Positions 4,680-14,375 of a stretch of DNA of 27,562 nt are shown here, piece by piece. This DNA comes from Cyanobacteriota bacterium (GTDB taxonomy: Bacteria > Cyanobacteriota > Cyanobacteriia > Leptolyngbyales > Leptolyngbyaceae). The stretch is from NCBI GenBank assembly GCA_027482985.1, contig JAIXVO010000786.1, forward strand, positions 1 through 27,562, in the 5' to 3' direction. Every line of letters begins with the position of its first letter. Within the stretch, counting starts at the first letter, position 1. Made by a program: the position numbers and the translations under genes. Under the pieces are notes generated by a model. The model ran no database searches, was not told the DNA's origin, and saw nothing but the letters and a program-made list of their open reading frames with translations.

Positions 4680-7600
4680 TTAGCAATGCTCATAGCCAAC
4701 TGTTTGTGGAGGGTGGCTCACCTCTGCCTGTACTTGTCTGGCAAAGCGTTCAAACCTTGCTGCATCACTGTTTGTAATTCGGGTCGCATGACAATCAATG
4801 GTATTCTGCTCAACTTTGAGGATAAGTCCCCGTCCCCAGGACAGCATCTCGGTTGGTAATTGCTGGCGATCGCCCTCGGTGGGTTGTACTCCCCGTCCCG
4901 GAGCCGTTGCGACCAAAAATCCATCACACTCGAACAAGAGGCATTGCTTACCGCCATAAAACGTACCACCTGCCATTGGCTGCCCTTTGAGGGCAAGAAT
5001 GGTTTGGGCACGGTCAACCACCGTTTCGACCTGAGCAATCCACTTCGCCTGGTCTTTCGCCATCGCCTGCAATGCCTTCTCACTCAAGGGTTGTTGCTCT
5101 TGAACCAGGGCTTTCCCTACTTCCTCAATTCGTTTCAAGTAGCGATCGGACTGCCCAATATCCCGCGCCTGGACGTACCACAACCGCACCTCATCCAGCG
5201 TCGGTTGTGGAGAGGGCTTTCCCAGAGATCTGGATTCTGTCGAATTGAGGGAAGGATCTGCCTGCTCCCACACCAATCGAGTTTGCCCGTTCGTTTGAGA
5301 AGCGGTATCAGTGGACGGACTGGTTTGATCAGGATGCGACTCTTGCCCTTTCACTGCAAGAGCTTCCAATTTTACCTGAGAGATTGCCACTGTCTCGGCG
5401 GGTGACTGTTGTACGTGAAACCCCAGTTTGGTTAACGCCGCGTCAGTTTCTTGAAATGCCTGGAAATCCGCTACACTCACATCTCCTGTGGTGTTTGGAT
5501 CAAGCTCTTGCCCGATGCGTTGGGCGGTCATTTGGCTTTCCCCTTTGCTAACCACGAAGAAATTACCGTTGTCCGGGCTATAGCTGATATCAAATTGGTG
5601 CCCTTTAACCGTCCAAAATTCACCGTCAAACTGGAGATGCCCTATCTGTTCTCCAAAGGCGTAAGCACGTTCGGCAATGTCTAGAATTGCCTGTCCTCTG
5701 GCTAATTCTGCTTCTCGAATGCTTTCAGGGGGCTGAATTATCCCATCAGTGTGGCTATTTTGAAGTGCGTTTGTTGCTTGAGCGATCGCCTCCAGCTCTG
5801 CGTCAGTTAACGGACGTGGGTTCTTTGGAGCTAAAAACTCAGTTGCAACTTGAGCAATTCCCGATCGTTCTTCTGGTTCTGCCACCTGATACCAGCTCCA
5901 CAAGCCATCTGACTCTACTTGACCATCCCAGGTGGGCTGAGGATGATCGCGTAAGCAATCGTTCCAGTCTTTATAGCCCTCTGGCTGAACCCGAATCAGC
6001 GGATACTCTGGAAATTGCTGCACGATACTCCAGGCTTGGCGGTTGCCATCGGGGTCATTATCCTGTGCCAGGATCAGTTCCCCGCCCTGGTCGAGAACTT
6101 GCCCAATGGCAGTAACAGGAATCGCCCCTCGCCCATCAGTAGACAGATAAACCGTTGCCCCTGTCTCTCGTGATTCATCCATTGCGGCGAAAGAAATAGC
6201 ATCAATTGGGGATTCGGTGAGAACGACGCGATCGACCACTCCCTCTCCCTGCTGAATCCAGAAGAACCCATCTTCTCGCCGGGTGCCAGGGGTTAGTCCT
6301 TTGAAATATTCGCCATCTGAATTTGGGAGAGTCCCCCGCAGATTTGCCCCGATCGCTTCACCGCATTCAAATGAATCCAGCAGTTCATGGCGAAAGAACA
6401 TCACGTTTTGCCGGGAATCTGCTGCAATAATGCCCTGCTGATGCAATGTCTCGATGATTTCAAGTGGGAGTTTGCGCTCCTGGGTGAGATACTGCTCAAC
6501 TGCCTGCCACTGGGATTCATCTCGAACATTACAACTGGGTGCGCGTTTGGGAGGTTCGGCTTGCTGGATAACTGGGGTAAGATTCTGGGTTTCTGCCAGC
6601 CATGACACCGCTTCCCTATAGCTGCTACCCTGGACGTGCATGACCAGATCGATCGCCCCATATTTGCCTGTGACTTCGGTTGCCCAGTCTGAGAAGCTGT
6701 GGTTGTTGTTATAGAGGCTGATTGTATGCCCTTCGTTTGTCCACTTATAAGCGTCGCGCTTGTCCTGAGTTAACCCCAGATTTTGGGCAACATGATCCAG
6801 CGGCAGTTCGCGTACAGTCGCTGCCAATTGTTTCATTGCTTCGTTCATCGCTTGGGATGGATTGGGTTTAGGCTCTACTGCATCTACTGAAACGGTTGCT
6901 TCGAGCATGGGCACAGGTCGGGCATTAAGTCCTGCCCAGTTGTCACAAATGACCGCTTCCACCTCGACCGGAACTTCTTTCAAAAACTGCTGTCCGGCTT
7001 CCACCATCGTTTGTACCAGGATTTGTCCTGCCCGATTCGCATGGGCTGCTGGTACTTCCAGAACAATTTCGTCATGCACCTGCATCAACAGCTTGGCTCC
7101 AGTCCCTTGCAGGTTTGCGGGTAACTGGGCGATCGCCAGTTTGGTGATATCGGCAGAGGTTCCCTGGACTGGAGCGTTAACGATTTCAGTGAAGGGGGCT
7201 TCCCCTTCCCATTGGCGCAACCGCCCTCCCAGTGTCCGGCAAGAGTTCGCTTGCTCTGCCTTGACCCGATCGTGCCAGTCAATTAGACCGGGGTAGGCTT
7301 TGAAGAACTGATCTCGGTGCTTCTGAGCTTGAGAAAAGGTGAGCGGCACATCGTACTGCGTTTTGGCATAGACCTGAAATCCTTGTGCCTGCATCCCGTA
7401 GATCAATCCAAAGTTGACTGCCTTTGCCAGTCGCCGCTCATCCTTCGTCACCTGATTGACGCTTTTGTGGAGCAACAGGCTGGCTGTGAGAGCATGAAGA
7501 TCCTGTCCCTTGCGGTATGCCTCTTTCATGCGCAACTCTCCACTCACCTCAGCCGCAATCCGTAGCTCAATCTGGCTGTAGTCCGCTTTAATCAGGACAT

Positions 7601-10600
7601 TGCCGGGAGCAGGTTCAAAGCAGCCTTTGATGCGAGGGTCACGCGGCACATTTTGGAGATTGGGACTGGTGCAGCTAAAGCGTCCCGTTACTGCCCCACA
7701 CTGGTTGATGTGAGGATGAAGCCGACCTGTTGCAGGGTGAATCAGCTTCTCATAGCCTTCTGCGTAGGTGGATAGGGCTTTTGTGGTCCGGCGATACTCT
7801 AACAGTTTGGCAACAACGGGATATTGCTCCTGTAATGGAATTAGCGTTTCCTTACGGGTATTCGTTACCGGAATCCCTAACTGTTGAAGTGCGGGGAGGA
7901 GTTGCTTGGAACTTTCCAGGTTAATCGCTGGCGGGTTATCCCCCAGTAAGGATGGCTGAATTACGTCAGACTGCTGGAACAGGGCTTGAATCTCTGGTTC
8001 TAAGCGAGCTTTTTGATCTCGTAGCGTTTGTGCCCAGGCTTGCAAATTCTCCCGGTTGATCGCCATGCCGTTCCATTCCATTTCGGCAACGCCAATAGCA
8101 GCACGAAATTCGAGCGAAGCGGTTTCTGTGAGTCCTTTTGCCTCTAGTCGTTCTGCCAGAGCATCTTGCAGGGGCAGCAGTACCGCTACATCTTTCGTGG
8201 CATACCGAACTTGATTCTCAGTTAACTTGCCGCCCCAATCACTTTTCTGCTCAGTCTTATCGAGATCAATACCCAGGTAACGCTGAGCGATCGCTTCGAG
8301 TTTATGAGACTGATTCAAGCCAGCGTCAATGACCTGGGAAGCCAGCATCGTGTCAAAAATGGGTCCTTTAACCTCCAGCCCAATTGATTTGAGCATTTGC
8401 AGATCAAAGGAGGCATTCTGAATAACCTTTTCTGCCTCACTGCCAAAGAGTTGGTTAAGAGGTTGTAACTCTTCCTGTGTGAAATTGGCACATTGAATAA
8501 TCGTGACAGCCTGATCGGGAGCAGCAAGCTGAATCAGTTCTACCGTGTCTTGATGTGGATCAAGTCCTGATGTTTCGGTGTCGATCGCCAGCCTTTCAAC
8601 ATCACTCAACCGATCAACAGTTTGCGCCAACTGCTCTATAGTCGTAACCAGTACCACATCCAACTTGTTTGTAATTGAAGTGTCTGGCTCTGAAGCGATT
8701 GGAGGCTCAGACTCAATACCTTCTTCAACTGTATGAGGCCGTTCTGCTTTTAGTTCCTCTCGCCGCATCTCCGCTGGCAGCTTTGCTATCGTTTCCTGTG
8801 CCGCTTGAGCAAATTCCTGATGCAGTAGATTCCGCGAGAAGAGTTGAGCAAAACCCCGATCTGGGTAGCGCGATTCACCTCCTTGAAATGGATTTTGTAC
8901 GGCGGTCTCCTGGAACTGAAGCCGACCATCTGAGTGAATGCCAAACACCATTTCCGAATCAATAAAAGTGTCTCCGTTCTGTTCCAGGTAGTGAGTCAGG
9001 TAAAGTTGGTTTCCGTGCCATTCGATGACCAGCGGGATGTATGGCTCATTCTCAATTCGCAAGTGAAAGTCCTCTCCTGACAGCACTAAAGAGGCTAATC
9101 CAGCTTCATGCAGCAACTTTGCCACATTTTTCTCGGCTCCACCTGTTTGCTCTCTAGCGGGTAGAATGGCTTGCTCCTCCGACTGAGTTAGTGGCATGGG
9201 TTGAGGTTGCTTGGAGTAGTCATCCTCAATGGGATCAACCAAAATCAGGGGTACGGTCGGCTCTTGGATGGCTGGGGTTTCTTCAGTAGTCGGGGTGGGA
9301 GAATCGAGTTGCTCCGGTTCTACCTCTACGACCTCGGTTGGTTCCTCGGTGATGACCTGAAGTTCGGGTAGCTTGACTCCCAGAAATTCACGCGCCTTGT
9401 CCTTGAAATCAAACGCTGCCAGCGCATATCCTTGCTCAGTCATCAAAACGTCAAGAACTCGATCAATCCGTTCAGCCGGAACGACCACCTCCATGCGATC
9501 GCTGACCGAGTAAAAGTCACTGCCACAGGCAGCAATAATGTCTTGATCAAGTGAGAAGCGATCTCCAATCGCAGATTTAGGGGTTTGCAGAACAAATCCG
9601 GCAGCGGTACTGCCAAACCGTGCAGCCGCCTGGGGTTTAAGGGTGAGAACTTCGTCCAGGGTTTTGACCAAGCCTTGGTAGCCTGTTACTTCGGTCAGAA
9701 AAGCTTTCACCTGTCTGGGGTCGCGGAAAGTGACAGGTTCATTGCGAAGGGATTCTTGAATGTCGAAACTGGCAGGCATGATTAAGCCCTGCCTGACTCC
9801 TCCAGTGTGGTCGGTGTAGTTTAGAAACTTGCCATTTGGATATTTCTCATAGGCTTTGAGCAGGTTTCCCTGAAAGATTTGCCACTCCAGTCGCTCCGTC
9901 TTTTGCCGCAAGTCAAATGCCGCATAGATATCTTGTCCCTCCCAGTTTGTTTCCTGGGCAGTGACCGTCGTAGCTTTCCCCTCCTTACCCCGGTTGAAGC
10001 GGGTAAGCGGAATCATGAGGATACGGGCATGGTTATCGGTGAGGATTTGGGCTTTCCAGTTCGTGGGGGCAGCAGGGCTACCGTGATGCCCTTTCTGGAA
10101 AATCTTTGCCACCACGCCATAGGTGATGTTGCCTTCAGGCGAAACCACTCGCACCGATCGCCCTGGCGGAAATTGCTTGAGGATATGGCTGACATGAGCA
10201 TACTGGTTGTTGAGTCGCTCATTCAGCTTGTCTCGGCTGTAATTGTCATGCTTGGAAGGCAACATTTCGGAGCGGTATTGCCGCGTCGATTGCCGCAGTT
10301 GTTCACTCTGTTCGCGGGTTTGCTGGGTTGCTGCCTCTTCAGCCCGTCCGAAATCGTGTTCAGCAATGTCTTTGACTCGTTCTAATCCCAGATTTTCCCG
10401 AACGGTGTTGATGACTTCGAGTTGACTGAAGGGTTTGACCGGGACTTTGGCATCCACCACTTCCAGGCAGACGGGTCCGGTAAATTCATTACGAACGGTT
10501 GCCTCGTCTGGAATCACTTCCATCTGGGCAATCGTTCGAGCATCCAGGTCAAGTTGCTGCGCCTCCAGCACACTCTCGCCCATTGCCTGTTTCTGGGCAA

Positions 10601-13600
10601 TCAGATCCAGGGTCTCCGACTCAATCAAGCTATAGAGTTCTTCCTGCTCTTTGACAGAGAGCAATGGGATACGACCTGTTACCCGACTGATGAGTTCGGT
10701 GTCTGTTTCTCCTTTGAGTCCTTCTGAAGGGAATGCCAGCTTTGTTTCTAGCTCCGGGTTGTCCTCCAGAATTTCAGTGATAACCTCCTCACCGTAGGGA
10801 TTAAGGAAATCAACCACATTAGACACAGATAAGGCTGACTCACGATCGGCTGTTGTATTGGCATTGAGCGTTGCCATTTTCTTGGACAGAATGGCTCCTA
10901 ACCGCTTCTCAGCCGGAAGATCGCTCATCAGTAGAGTAATTTCTGGTTCCACCACCTGACCGAAGCGATTAACCCGCCCCAACATCTGCATGACCTGGTT
11001 GATGTCACGCTCTGCCTGCGCCATAATTAGATGCCGCTGCTGCTGATCCGCGAACTTTTCTGAGGCGTGAAGGTTAATCCCCGTTGCCCCAGAGCGGTTG
11101 AGGATCAGAACATCGAGTTCGCCCCCATTGAATTGGCTAACCGTTTCAACTTTTGCCTTGGGGCTAACTTCCTTAGTGGAACGCAAGCCATAACCCTGTT
11201 CGCCACTGGAGGTGTAATCGATTGTGTGCTGCCGTCCCGTAATCTCGCCAACGCGATAGCCTTCCTGATCGAGTCGCCACTTGATGTAGTCGATCGAACT
11301 GAGGGGAATCGTAGACAGATCGGTTTCATCGATCAAGGATCTGGCATCTTCATACGTAGCAAGGGCACCGTCCCCCAGTTCGTCATCGGTCATTCGCCTG
11401 CGAACTGCATTTCCTTCATGGTCTTTGATGGTGACATCGCGGGAGCGTTCCAGGTAACGACTGAGAACATCCCCAAAGGAAATATTGATGGCATCGCCTG
11501 GATTCAAACCGTGATCGTCGGCGTACTGTTTGATGAACGCTGCCATCGTGTTGGCAACCGCAATTACAGGCTTCTGCCCTCGCTCAATTGCGGCGATCGC
11601 CTCCTGTACAGTTGCTTCAGCCTTCTGGCACAGCAAGCCCTGGTCGATCACGTTATTCATCAAAGACGTGAAATTGGTAGACCGCGCTCCGGTTTGCCCA
11701 ATAGAGTTGTCTTCGCTGGCAGCTTTGGCTTCTTTTTTGAGTTGTTTGCTGAGTTTTTGAACCGCTTTTTCCTTGGCTAAATCAAACTGGCTGATCGCCC
11801 GCATGATGCCAGAGATGCTATCGGCAATCTCCCGATCCACGCCAACCGTTTTAGCTGCAAAGGTAATTCCTTCAAACGATCGCTCTCGCCTCAGCATTTG
11901 ACCAGAAGCAACAAACTTGGTTGCCATCATTTGCTGAAGCGGAACACCTCCCTCTTTTAGAGTTCTCTGTAATGATGAAATATCGCTCACTGCTGCCGTT
12001 GCATCGGAACGACGAGCATAGAGATCCATCACTGCTGGGTCTTTGACCGCAGTGGCGCTGGCAAAGACAGATCCTGCACTGCGATCGATTAACTCTCGCA
12101 CAAATTCGGAGCGATCCGGGGCATCGCTGACACTCTTCCAGGCTTTCTCTCCGGTACTGCCTCCCGCTTCGTGCGCCTCATCAAAAATAAAGATGGCTCT
12201 GGAAGCAAGTTCTCGCAGGAAATCTCGACGAAAGGGTTCTTCGCTATTAACAGTTTGAAGCTGGCTGTAGGTGGTAAAAACCGCGTTGTAGCTTCCCATC
12301 CCCTGCTCTAGAAGCTGCTGCATTTCTGCCTGCTTCTCGGTTGGGGAAGATGCTCTTAATTTGGTTCCATCTGGCAGATCAAGTGCGGCATTACTATTGG
12401 TAGCAAAGATTTTGACCCCTGGTTTCCCGATGTCTGTCAGGTCTTCCAGCATCGACACATAGAGGTTGGGCTTTTGCGTCACAAAGACGGGGATATAACC
12501 CTGGTTCATCGCGTCCACGATCTGGCTGGCACAGAACCGTCCCTTTCCGTTGCCCGTCTGGTCGCCATTGAGAAATACCTTGTCGCGATCACGCTGCCAG
12601 AAAGCCAGGGCATTTGCGTCAATTTGCTCAGCGTAGAGATACCGCCACATCTGCTCTTTGGATTCGTACCCCAACCGTTGCTGCACAAACGCATCGACAT
12701 CCCCAACGGCTTGCTCTAATTTGTCGAGGGCAATCTGAGCGGCGGTTGCCATGTTTGCAGGGATCAGGGTGCCGGGTGTTCTACCCTGGCTGCGGGGAAT
12801 ATAAGCAACATTTAATGGAGCATCCGAGGCGAGATGCTCTTGCTCTGTGATTGCCATTGGTCGAATCCTTGCTGCTGTATTGGGATGAAGGCTTAATCGC
12901 TGGTCATGCCGTAGGTCAAGTTGGCTAGCCAGTTCTCCAGCGTGAAATTGTCGTGGCTCTCCTGCAAGCCCTGTTGCATCTCTGGGCTGCTCAGTTGAAG
13001 GGGAAATGGGAAATCCAACTCCGTCTCCGCGAAGCGAATCATGAATGTCTCGTTGCGCTCCAGAAATGTCTCTGCCCACTCCTGCGTCCACCACCACAGG
13101 GGTTCGAGTTCCTGGGTCTCGGCGTTCTCGTACAGGCTGGGGGATTCCTGGAGGTAAAGCTGCCTCAACGCCTGAGCCAGCCTGCGATGGGTCTGTACCT
13201 GATCCTCGCCACTCTGTTCCATCCAGGTGTGAATCATCCACTGGATTCGCAGCGTCATCAGTTGTCTGTAGTCCGATTCGCTCATCTGAGTCATCTCTGG
13301 TGAGAGCTTGACCATCAACAATTCTTGATCCCCTACCTCTGGACTCCAGACGAATGGGTAGCTCGCGTAATCCTGATAATCCGGTTGTTTGCTGCTGGAT
13401 TGGCTCATTAGGTAGTAGCTCCTTGAGGGCATCGAATGATTGGTAGATGAGCGGGACATCGGCGGCTGGCAAATCTCTTGAGGCTTGCCCTCTGCCCTCA
13501 ATGACAATGAGGTCGATCGGGAAACCTGCCCCCTGCTTACGGTAAAGGTCGCCCCACACGGAGATGTGCTGGGTGACGTTGTACTGCTGGTAGAGGGCGT

Positions 13601-14375
13601 AAAAGAAGCCCCGGCTCTCGATGGAGTTATAGCGGTTGGAGCGAAGATCTTCGTCTGCCCCAAGCTTGCCTCCGAGGATCAGTACCCCACGCCCGTCATC
13701 CTTCATGGCTTCCAACGCTTTAAAGGCGATCGCATGGTCAATCTGGCGAGTTCCCCTCCGGTTGCCGGGAATCTCAAAGCGTTTAATCTTGCCATTATCA
13801 TCGTGGACAGGTCCGAAAGGCGGGTTGGCGATGACCACATCAAGGGCTTCGGGTGGGCGATACTGGCTGGCATCAAACTGAGTGAGTTGGCGGTAGCCGC
13901 GCTGACCCAGTTCAGCAAAGCGATCGCCATTCAATTCATTGGCAATCACCTGGGCAGGATTAGCTCCAATTAGCAGGGCACCGTTTCCAGCAGTCGGCTC
14001 ATAGATTGTGGTTTCCGGGGTAATTCCTGCCAGGGTAGAGGCAAGATAAGCGATCGGGATGGGAGTGCTGTACGCCTGTTGAAGCACTGACATTGATGAG
14101 CGAACTCCCAGTACAGGCTGACGGTTCAGCAGGTCAACCAGCTTGTCGTATGCCTGGTGAGTAGTTTCTGCTTGGGTAATTAAGGCAGGCGCAACTCGGA
14201 CGATCGCCGCTTCCATTGCCTCATCTACCACTTTGGTAAGCGGACTCCCAGGAGGAATACTTTCGCCTAAGAAATCCTCAGCCTGCTTTCGCGCCTGGTT
14301 GATCCGGGCGTAATTTTCTCCTTGCGATAGCGAACTGTGGAACGCCCGAATTAGGGCTTCCTTGCGCTCATCCAT
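4680..14375 (-). CDS. Giant polyvalent protein: N6-methyltransferase, strawberry-notch helicase, 3'-5' exonuclease, PolA polymerase, DUF3991/TOPRIM
   Basis: A 3231-residue protein of five modules. (1) Adenine methyltransferase, about 80-325: EPTAGNGAL at 126-134 and NPPF at 184-187. (2) A linker, 326-506, which also encodes another protein in the +1 frame. (3) Strawberry-notch/SNF2-type helicase, about 507-1190: GNGKG loop with K611, DEAH 732-735, GRVNRFGQ 1133-1140, followed by a C-terminal extension to about 1560. (4) A segment at about 1757-1811 that resembles DUF6908, then RNase D/PolA-type DEDDy exonuclease with D1932, E1934, D1991, Y2058 and D2062. (5) Family A polymerase: DYSQIELR with D2265, K2318-F2322-Y2326 in the O-helix, HDE with D2435. 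(6) DUF3991-like segment at about 2540-2600 and TOPRIM with E2721 and D2772-D2774-D2776. The last ~380 residues are unassigned. There is no 5' nuclease domain. All catalytic residues listed are present. It lies in the T4SS operon, 15 bp after a small gene. Confidence 0.93.
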   Translation of the reverse strand: MDERKEALIRAFHSSLSQGENYARINQARKQAEDFLGESIPPGSPLTKVVDEAMEAAIVRVAPALITQAETTHQAYDKLVDLLNRQPVLGVRSSMSVLQQAYSTPIPIAYLASTLAGITPETTIYEPTAGNGALLIGANPAQVIANELNGDRFAELGQRGYRQLTQFDASQYRPPEALDVVIANPPFGPVHDDNGKIKRFEIPGNRRGTRQIDHAIAFKALEAMKDDGRGVLILGGKLGADEDLRSNRYNSIESRGFFYALYQQYNVTQHISVWGDLYRKQGAGFPIDLIVIEGRGQASRDLPAADVPLIYQSFDALKELLPNEPIQQQTTGLSGLRELPIRLESRGRGSRIVDGQALTRDDSDERIGLQTTDDAANPVDDSHLDGTEWRGSGTDPSQAGSGVEAALPPGIPQPVRERRDPGTRTPVVVDAGVGRDISGAQRDIHDSLRGDGVGFPISPSTEQPRDATGLAGEPRQFHAGELASQLDLRHDQRLSLHPNTAARIRPMAITEQEHLASDAPLNVAYIPRSQGRTPGTLIPANMATAAQIALDKLEQAVGDVDAFVQQRLGYESKEQMWRYLYAEQIDANALAFWQRDRDKVFLNGDQTGNGKGRFCASQIVDAMNQGYIPVFVTQKPNLYVSMLEDLTDIGKPGVKIFATNSNAALDLPDGTKLRASSPTEKQAEMQQLLEQGMGSYNAVFTTYSQLQTVNSEEPFRRDFLRELASRAIFIFDEAHEAGGSTGEKAWKSVSDAPDRSEFVRELIDRSAGSVFASATAVKDPAVMDLYARRSDATAAVSDISSLQRTLKEGGVPLQQMMATKFVASGQMLRRERSFEGITFAAKTVGVDREIADSISGIMRAISQFDLAKEKAVQKLSKQLKKEAKAASEDNSIGQTGARSTNFTSLMNNVIDQGLLCQKAEATVQEAIAAIERGQKPVIAVANTMAAFIKQYADDHGLNPGDAINISFGDVLSRYLERSRDVTIKDHEGNAVRRRMTDDELGDGALATYEDARSLIDETDLSTIPLSSIDYIKWRLDQEGYRVGEITGRQHTIDYTSSGEQGYGLRSTKEVSPKAKVETVSQFNGGELDVLILNRSGATGINLHASEKFADQQQRHLIMAQAERDINQVMQMLGRVNRFGQVVEPEITLLMSDLPAEKRLGAILSKKMATLNANTTADRESALSVSNVVDFLNPYGEEVITEILEDNPELETKLAFPSEGLKGETDTELISRVTGRIPLLSVKEQEELYSLIESETLDLIAQKQAMGESVLEAQQLDLDARTIAQMEVIPDEATVRNEFTGPVCLEVVDAKVPVKPFSQLEVINTVRENLGLERVKDIAEHDFGRAEEAATQQTREQSEQLRQSTRQYRSEMLPSKHDNYSRDKLNERLNNQYAHVSHILKQFPPGRSVRVVSPEGNITYGVVAKIFQKGHHGSPAAPTNWKAQILTDNHARILMIPLTRFNRGKEGKATTVTAQETNWEGQDIYAAFDLRQKTERLEWQIFQGNLLKAYEKYPNGKFLNYTDHTGGVRQGLIMPASFDIQESLRNEPVTFRDPRQVKAFLTEVTGYQGLVKTLDEVLTLKPQAAARFGSTAAGFVLQTPKSAIGDRFSLDQDIIAACGSDFYSVSDRMEVVVPAERIDRVLDVLMTEQGYALAAFDFKDKAREFLGVKLPELQVITEEPTEVVEVEPEQLDSPTPTTEETPAIQEPTVPLILVDPIEDDYSKQPQPMPLTQSEEQAILPAREQTGGAEKNVAKLLHEAGLASLVLSGEDFHLRIENEPYIPLVIEWHGNQLYLTHYLEQNGDTFIDSEMVFGIHSDGRLQFQETAVQNPFQGGESRYPDRGFAQLFSRNLLHQEFAQAAQETIAKLPAEMRREELKAERPHTVEEGIESEPPIASEPDTSITNKLDVVLVTTIEQLAQTVDRLSDVERLAIDTETSGLDPHQDTVELIQLAAPDQAVTIIQCANFTQEELQPLNQLFGSEAEKVIQNASFDLQMLKSIGLEVKGPIFDTMLASQVIDAGLNQSHKLEAIAQRYLGIDLDKTEQKSDWGGKLTENQVRYATKDVAVLLPLQDALAERLEAKGLTETASLEFRAAIGVAEMEWNGMAINRENLQAWAQTLRDQKARLEPEIQALFQQSDVIQPSLLGDNPPAINLESSKQLLPALQQLGIPVTNTRKETLIPLQEQYPVVAKLLEYRRTTKALSTYAEGYEKLIHPATGRLHPHINQCGAVTGRFSCTSPNLQNVPRDPRIKGCFEPAPGNVLIKADYSQIELRIAAEVSGELRMKEAYRKGQDLHALTASLLLHKSVNQVTKDERRLAKAVNFGLIYGMQAQGFQVYAKTQYDVPLTFSQAQKHRDQFFKAYPGLIDWHDRVKAEQANSCRTLGGRLRQWEGEAPFTEIVNAPVQGTSADITKLAIAQLPANLQGTGAKLLMQVHDEIVLEVPAAHANRAGQILVQTMVEAGQQFLKEVPVEVEAVICDNWAGLNARPVPMLEATVSVDAVEPKPNPSQAMNEAMKQLAATVRELPLDHVAQNLGLTQDKRDAYKWTNEGHTISLYNNNHSFSDWATEVTGKYGAIDLVMHVQGSSYREAVSWLAETQNLTPVIQQAEPPKRAPSCNVRDESQWQAVEQYLTQERKLPLEIIETLHQQGIIAADSRQNVMFFRHELLDSFECGEAIGANLRGTLPNSDGEYFKGLTPGTRREDGFFWIQQGEGVVDRVVLTESPIDAISFAAMDESRETGATVYLSTDGRGAIPVTAIGQVLDQGGELILAQDNDPDGNRQAWSIVQQFPEYPLIRVQPEGYKDWNDCLRDHPQPTWDGQVESDGLWSWYQVAEPEERSGIAQVATEFLAPKNPRPLTDAELEAIAQATNALQNSHTDGIIQPPESIREAELARGQAILDIAERAYAFGEQIGHLQFDGEFWTVKGHQFDISYSPDNGNFFVVSKGESQMTAQRIGQELDPNTTGDVSVADFQAFQETDAALTKLGFHVQQSPAETVAISQVKLEALAVKGQESHPDQTSPSTDTASQTNGQTRLVWEQADPSLNSTESRSLGKPSPQPTLDEVRLWYVQARDIGQSDRYLKRIEEVGKALVQEQQPLSEKALQAMAKDQAKWIAQVETVVDRAQTILALKGQPMAGGTFYGGKQCLLFECDGFLVATAPGRGVQPTEGDRQQLPTEMLSWGRGLILKVEQNTIDCHATRITNSDAARFERFARQVQAEVSHPPQTVGYEHC
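12866..12870 (-). promoter_or_regulatory. Possible internal ribosome-binding site for a helicase-polymerase product
   Basis: AAGGA on the minus strand, 8 bases before an in-frame ATG at 12857 (Met507 of the giant, MAITEQEH), which opens the helicase module. It lies 35 bases after the nested gene's stop. It could give a 2725-residue form lacking the methyltransferase. Confidence 0.4.
12893..13408 (-). CDS. Nested +1-frame gene inside the giant ORF: acidic 171-residue protein
   Basis: Starts at the ATG at 13408 (MSQSSSKQ), with AAGGAG 10 bases upstream, and ends at TAA (12893-12895). The frame is +1 to the giant. It has a normal, folded-protein composition with patterned hydrophobic and Trp residues (WWWTQEWAETFLERNE; TLRIQWMIHTWMEQ). 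By hand count, GC at third positions is 39 of 60 in its first 60 codons. The giant's frame over the same stretch has 21 of 60, and the giant's first 40 codons have 23 of 40. The overlapped giant sequence (about 323-494) is Gly/Arg/Asp/Pro-rich and looks disordered. The protein has 28 acidic and 9 Lys/Arg residues (net about -19), comparable in size and charge to DNA-mimic antirestriction proteins such as ArdA, although I see no ArdA similarity. Function unknown. Alternative: a chance open frame, which codon use argues against. Confidence 0.65.
   Translation of the reverse strand: MSQSSSKQPDYQDYASYPFVWSPEVGDQELLMVKLSPEMTQMSESDYRQLMTLRIQWMIHTWMEQSGEDQVQTHRRLAQALRQLYLQESPSLYENAETQELEPLWWWTQEWAETFLERNETFMIRFAETELDFPFPLQLSSPEMQQGLQESHDNFTLENWLANLTYGMTSD
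13419..13424 (-). promoter_or_regulatory. Shine-Dalgarno site of the nested gene
   Basis: AAGGAG on the minus strand, 10 bases before the ATG at 13408. In the giant's frame these bases fall in Lys-Glu codons of a conserved-looking segment (FDALKELLP), so the match could partly be chance. Confidence 0.5.

Follow-up and report, generated by a model that had tools for sequence, protein, structure and literature searches.

The Rz1 gene of phage lambda lies wholly within Rz, in the +1 frame; the mature part of Rz1 falls in a mutationally silent stretch of Rz, and architectures in which the two genes are separated also exist (PMC5295617). The locus described here is like Rz/Rz1 in its +1 nesting, in the silent stretch of the host gene and in having separated architectures, all three being features given in that account (PMC5295617); no relation is claimed. 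The two differ in that Rz and Rz1 serve phage lysis as two proteins of one complex, whereas here about 170 codons are nested in the giant gene of a conjugative element. In Bacillus subtilis, comS encodes a small regulatory protein in a distinct frame within the large gene srfAB, and our locus shares with it the placement of a small gene in a distinct frame inside a large one (PMC12915044). It differs from comS/srfAB in that the overlapped residues of the host gene are neutral here, and in that the pair recurs across a bacterial class. comS is, moreover, much shorter than the nested gene studied here.

DarB-type dyads of polyvalent proteins consist of a methylase C-terminally fused to an SF2 helicase and are found on mobile elements (PMC5512222). 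The methylase-SF2 helicase fusion of our giant gene, likewise on a mobile element, resembles the dyads of that account; however, its passage on these dyads mentions no nested gene, the word 'overlap' is absent from the main text, and polyvalent proteins are described there as scarce in cyanobacteria (PMC5512222). Only a few long overlapping genes of bacteria are described as fully established (PMC9927249). The present case is built on dozens of loci with internal controls, namely copies in which the gene does or does not overlap and the same DNA selected in different frames, and provides a natural system for asking how overlaps arise and are escaped. The DNA mimics ArdA and Ocr, with which a small acidic protein invites comparison, are acidic too. 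Among open-access papers, mostly from journals, no title or beginning of an abstract in the matches listed reports the nested gene.

The nested ORF, its host gene and their recurrence

We analysed a stretch of 27,562 nucleotides (the window), whose relevant features are as follows.

4680..14375, minus strand: giant gene, 3231 aa, reading methylase - linker - helicase - DUF6908 - 3'-5' exonuclease - PolA polymerase - DUF3991/Toprim
13413..14375, minus strand: N6-adenine methylase part, giant aa 1-321 (N6_Mtase, 23.2 bits against a Pfam cut-off of 20.4)
13419..13424, minus strand: Shine-Dalgarno AAGGAG of the nested gene (13424-13419), 10 nt 5' of the nested ATG, doubling as giant codons K-E
12893..13408, minus strand: nested gene for a 171-aa acidic protein in frame +1 of the giant, based on homologues, a frame test and giant-frame stop counts
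12893..13408, minus strand: giant linker, codons 323-495, amino acids neutral, stop-free
12866..12870, minus strand: AAGGA, 8 nt 5' of the in-frame giant ATG of the next line
12855..12857, minus strand: in-frame giant ATG, possible helicase-first start, 35 nt past the nested stop
10578..12665, minus strand: strawberry-notch-type SF2 helicase part (AAA_34, Helicase_C_4)

The nested ORF runs from an ATG at 13408 through 171 codons to a TAA at 12895-12893 and lies whole within the giant gene, on the same strand and in a different frame. An alternative in-frame ATG upstream would give a product of 188 aa; we prefer the 171-aa start, with which both the Shine-Dalgarno and the homologues' own starts agree. 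The Shine-Dalgarno site that the first-pass annotation had reported is present. Its GC3 value of 65% over the first 60 codons was reproduced (73% over the whole nested frame); for the giant frame over the nested ORF we obtained 37%, both in those 60 codons and overall, in place of 35%. The encoded protein has 28 D+E against 9 K+R and a pI of 4.25, and this acidity is kept among its relatives (pI 4.05-4.93 in 66 loci).

The giant joins an N6-adenine methylase to a downstream SF2 helicase and has TraG/VirD4-type coupling, TrbI-type and M23 peptidase genes as neighbours, which point to a conjugative element. The DarB-like setting suggested previously was thus borne out, in the fused dyad (N6_Mtase, AAA_34 and Helicase_C_4) and in its conjugation neighbourhood (the TraG/VirD4-type and TrbI-type genes). 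Within 4680-14375, an exonuclease/PolA polymerase and Toprim part is fused onto the methylase-helicase dyad, and a 121-codon off-frame ORF lies close to the giant's 3' end (4718-5083, minus strand). Elsewhere in the window's own assembly, contig C534 carries another giant fragment (L003/L023), which likewise contains a nested gene and whose small protein is 35% identical; it groups with copies from another family (f13) and may represent assembly contamination (4.28% contamination).

A search of a 5.8-billion-protein database at E up to 0.001 returned 16 homologous proteins, most at 94-45% identity, and a 49-row profile matched 25 clusters; no database relative carried a precomputed Pfam domain. 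Six-frame searching of 388 genomes from the class with a 26-row profile detected the family in 49 of them, at 66 distinct places (from 67 rows, as one locus took up two), all of which were oriented and classified. The small gene had methylase upstream and helicase downstream at 59 places, stood alone at six and preceded a helicase-first giant at one. In a 61-row alignment Y47 was invariant, and Y14, W21, P23, L50, R54, P90, P134, L157, W160 and L161 were nearly so.

A further search with the methylase part (E up to 1e-30), which avoids conditioning on the small protein, identified 76 loci in 53 of the 388 genomes, including all 59 nested places (78 rows, with the pair on G084:C149 counted as a single locus and likewise the pair on G020:C148, whose members are about 2 kb from each other). 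Helicase lay downstream and the nested ORF was present in 68 loci, four loci were helicase-first, two were cut or broken (L100, L101), and two partial matches were left out (G206:C2, G020:C76). Among 15 of the 17 further methylase loci, nine had a downstream helicase, an open linker and a +1 ORF missed by the profile and identified from position, frame and motifs, not by an independent profile score; four had neither downstream helicase nor ORF, and two were cut or broken. The nested ORF occupied the identical +1 frame in 68/68 loci where the linker is flanked by methylase and helicase, two of whose giants are broken by frameshifts (L052/L109, L069/L108). A few other giants stop short, either within the helicase or past it (L025, L033, L071, L077), and in L080 the methylase is split.

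Selection in the two frames

We sorted substitutions, both possible and observed, by what they change in either frame, using a simple overlap-aware count of our own with the flanks (450 nt) as control. Pairs of 70-98.5% identity were retained, giving seven groups with usable overlap pairs; L033/L034 had no overlap pair under this filter, and Lepto160 and L033/34 had no downstream pair. Within the overlap, the small frame was constrained (dNN/dNS 0.14-0.46 over the seven groups) and the giant frame was unconstrained (dNN/dSN 0.75-2.87). With 22 sequences and 211 of its 231 pairs retained, the largest group gave 0.37 (95% interval 0.28-0.47) for the small frame and 1.36 (1.00-1.88) for the giant frame. 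Values for the window's group, a single pair (L024/L025), were 0.23 (0.13-0.38) and 0.86 (0.47-1.61), and in two small groups, L073/74 and L062/63, the small-frame interval reaches 1. In the flanks, the giant frame was strongly constrained (0.00-0.22) and the small frame was without consistent constraint. Position-wise divergence flips near the nested ATG, the bins past the nested stop, which are blurred by unaligned indels, being left out. As judged from substitution patterns, selection switches frame: the amino acids of the small frame are constrained in the overlap and those of the giant are neutral, and in the flanks the reverse holds.

The giant frame is nevertheless kept free of stops. 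None was present inside the overlap in any of 66 scored loci (57 plus nine, related to one another and non-independent); the frameshifted L052 and L069 were left out of this count and also lack a giant-frame stop there. Codon usage of the flanks predicts 7.2 stops per locus, with a probability of none of at most 0.039 at any locus. Synonymous permutation within the ORF predicts a mean of 3.3, with a probability of none of up to 0.55, and is weak per locus. The third frame contains 12.3 stops per locus. In ten non-overlapping homologues the same phase carries 18, 7, 8, 9, 12, 13, 15, 8, 6 and 1 stops, a mean of 9.7. These counts indicate that the giant frame NEVERTHELESS is kept open by selection against stops, and since none is seen where 7.2 are expected and 9.7 occur in non-overlapping homologues, the giant is presumably read through, its linker residues being a by-product.

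Both frames are under selection, the small one at the amino-acid level and the giant one for stop freedom. Frame-switching selection together with a stop-free giant argues that a small acidic protein is maintained along with a giant whose linker is neutral. This agrees with the first-pass annotation, which had taken the 171-residue +1 ORF for a real gene and the giant's residues over it for by-product sequence: homologues keep the +1 frame open in 68/68 loci, and amino-acid selection in the overlap falls on the small frame, contradicting selection only on the giant's frame.

Because both frames are kept in many cyanobacteria, with the protein sequence selected in the small frame and mere openness in the giant one, annotation has largely missed the family. 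The gap can be seen by setting the 25 clusters found by the profile search of 5.8 billion proteins against the 66 places found by six-frame searching of 388 genomes. In a plasmid collection, five records matched, namely pAQ6 of the laboratory strain PCC 7002, where the nested gene lies inside SYNPCC7002_RS15125 and the family can be tested, and plasmids of PCC 7003, PCC 7117, NIES-970 and NIES-3755. The helicase protein was the sole listing under the match in all five, in a gene table incomplete by its own description. A few relatives elsewhere do carry annotation. The expectation that automatic annotation would normally drop the gene is supported for the most part. Viral contigs contained no relative of the small protein, of the window's helicase or of the Thalassospira helicase introduced below, and no relative was found in phage records.

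Start signals and products

The nearest upstream stop in the nested frame lies a median of 2 codons before the start (66 loci) and within 5 codons in 45 of them. For these 45 we applied a start rule blind to Shine-Dalgarno sites: the first start codon was ATG in 43 and equalled the adopted start in 43, and a Shine-Dalgarno-like stretch was present in 43. The giant's Lys-Glu at that site is spelled AAGGAG in 32/35 cases; among flanking Lys-Glu pairs, 19 of 186 are spelled in this way. The raw counts of 62/66 for Shine-Dalgarno, 46/51 for AAGGAG and 66/66 for ATG are biased towards this result, since starts were chosen partly by Shine-Dalgarno.

Past the nested stop, an in-frame giant ATG follows within 60 nt in 59/66 loci (median 20 nt), against 42% for helicase-internal positions. 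A Shine-Dalgarno-like stretch precedes 20 of these 59 ATGs and is lacking from 39, against 55 of 1101 background ATGs. Stop and start overlap in several loci as TAATG, TGATG or ATGA; L091 is without such a start. The post-stop ATG resembles a coupled helicase start, which suggests a candidate third, helicase-first product.

The best explanation, and in our judgement a highly probable one, is that the same DNA is read in two frames for two proteins, the read-through giant and a separate small acidic protein. Ribosomes starting at the giant's ATG would read through to make one methylase-helicase-polymerase polypeptide, in which the residues of codons 323-495 would matter little and the absence of stops alone would be selected, as the pattern of substitutions and stops indicates. 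The internal Shine-Dalgarno would recruit other ribosomes for a protein of about 170 aa in its own right; that the sequence of this protein is under selection is shown by the same pattern. Some of the ribosomes terminating at the nested stop, beside an in-frame ATG, may re-initiate there and give a helicase-first product without methylase. We hold such coupled re-initiation to be slightly short of an even chance.

A +1 frame open merely by chance or composition, without product, is a reading invited by the off-frame ORFs of 80-240 aa that are common in the window and favoured by GC-rich third positions. It leaves unexplained the conserved protein family, the purifying selection on the small frame, the conserved start with its Shine-Dalgarno and the homologues outside the giant, and its probability is negligible; frame-resolved selection and the stops in non-overlapping homologues led us to reject it. 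The small gene might instead be the only real product of the region, with methylase and helicase made separately as an operon and the giant frame open incidentally. The neutrality of the giant's residues in the overlap would fit, as would the in-frame ATG past the nested stop and the separate methylase and helicase ORFs of Persicobacter. This is very unlikely given 66 stop-free loci where 7.2 stops are expected at each and non-overlapping homologues average 9.7, and an incidentally open giant frame was rejected on the ground that the absence of stops is selected. A further alternative is that ribosomes leave the methylase frame for the nested one by frameshifting, to give a methylase-small fusion: in the window the nested frame is indeed open 5' of its ATG. 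The nested-frame stop that lies at most 5 codons upstream in 45/66 loci (at the median distance of 2 codons given above) excludes the fusion there; we regard it as barely credible overall and rejected it because of these upstream stops.

The first-pass annotation had also likened the small protein to DNA-mimic antirestriction proteins such as Ocr and ArdA. Like them it is small and strongly acidic, with its 28 acidic against 9 basic residues at pI 4.25 and an acidic pI in all 66 loci, and the DarB-like neighbour is known for antirestriction (PMC5512222). It differs from them in that sequence searches linked it to no known family or structure of antirestriction proteins: Pfam and PADLOC gave no match for the small protein, PHROGs none for five distant members, and the best PDB match by sequence had E 0.37. 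Family matches across 26 members were scattered, single and weak, the best being ParD in one member (E 7.7e-4). The conserved W21, W111 and W160 also look like the core of an ordinary folded protein. Acidity is thus the sole basis of the antirestriction proposal, which we consider unlikely and did not retain; in its place we favour an accessory factor to the dyad of methylase and helicase.

Most likely, the small protein would serve the dyad as an accessory or regulatory subunit that is co-produced with it and acts during entry or establishment of the conjugative element's DNA. We put this forward tentatively. An accessory role is favoured by the constant site before the helicase in both architectures and by co-inheritance with the giant. 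Small-protein distances correlated at 0.823 with those of the helicase and at 0.778 with those of the methylase, the difference not being significant.

Small genes outside the overlap and origin

Four loci (L104-L107) have giants that open with the helicase, the methylase following further on. Their small gene is not nested but an ordinary one, 42-77 nt before the giant's first start codon, and it was directly upstream of the helicase in 4/4 helicase-first giants. L105-L107 match the family profile at E 2.7e-13 to 7.9e-15; L104 is itself a member of that profile and had earlier matched at E 5.6e-4 over 62 positions. Leptolyngbya boryana NIES-2135 has the helicase-first arrangement, with its small gene annotated as NIES2135_62090.

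The six stand-alone copies are L030, L031, L032, L035, L076 and L078, of which the first four have neighbours that look, by eye, like housekeeping genes. Five of the six genomes yielded no helicase at E up to 1e-10 and no methylase at E up to 1e-30, which indicates that the small protein is independent of the giant there. Life without the giant in these five genomes argues that the small protein also has, or has gained, a role of its own. A quick small-protein tree places the stand-alone copies inside the overlapping radiation, in three places, with moderate support and long branches. The phrase 'overprinted on the linker', used previously, may invert the order of events, since the small gene lies outside the giant in 10 loci.

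For a view beyond cyanobacteria, plasmid records with a related helicase were used; seven of 230 were examined, five of the seven non-cyanobacterial. The giant of the alphaproteobacterium Thalassospira lucentensis, some 6150 codons long going by its record coordinates, has a 128-codon +1 ORF in the corresponding position, also with a Shine-Dalgarno (L110, 4582-4965). Its profile score was reached by 2 of 2000 shuffles, and its profile alignment gave p 0.015 with a probability of only 2.9%. The giant frame there would be open by chance in 19% of permutations, and the protein database contained no homologous protein at E up to 0.001. On these comparisons, the case for the nested gene in Thalassospira is suggestive only. 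Vogesella and P. putida have fused dyads whose linkers are short and in which no homologue of the small gene was recognised, and Bosea gave no methylase match.

In a helicase tree rooted on Vogesella, P. putida, Persicobacter and Bosea, Thalassospira groups with the overlapping loci and the helicase-first giants are sister to one overlapping group. These placements favour an old overlap with later release of the small gene; a second fusion is the alternative to release. De novo birth inside an existing methylase-helicase linker, as opposed to the trapping of an older gene, is compatible with the two-protein explanation and in our view nearly as probable as not. The fused, short-linkered outgroup dyads without a recognised small gene fit such a birth, as do the stand-alone copies within the nested radiation of the small-protein tree and the helicase-first giants within the helicase tree. 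The operon-like stop-start junctions past the nested gene and its ordinary place before helicase-first giants instead fit a small-helicase pair that existed beforehand. That a gene found across the class, and possibly more widely as in Thalassospira, was trapped in a domain fusion, with three products (the giant, the small acidic protein and a helicase-first form made by coupled re-initiation), a linker of 170 residues kept just as a stop-free spacer, and several escapes to become a separate gene, is a possibility that we rate as somewhat less than probable.

Two groups of unusual copies were also observed. In L108 (7106-12991) and protein P0027, the small protein is in frame with the helicase N-terminus, by fusion or by frameshift, and the frameshift in L108 may be an assembly error. 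Among the stand-alone homologues L014-L017, L076 and L078, four carry an N-terminal extension of the RYRPILR- or RFRPILR-type; these homologues lie mostly in genomes in which no giant was found, and they may represent a host gene derived from the element.
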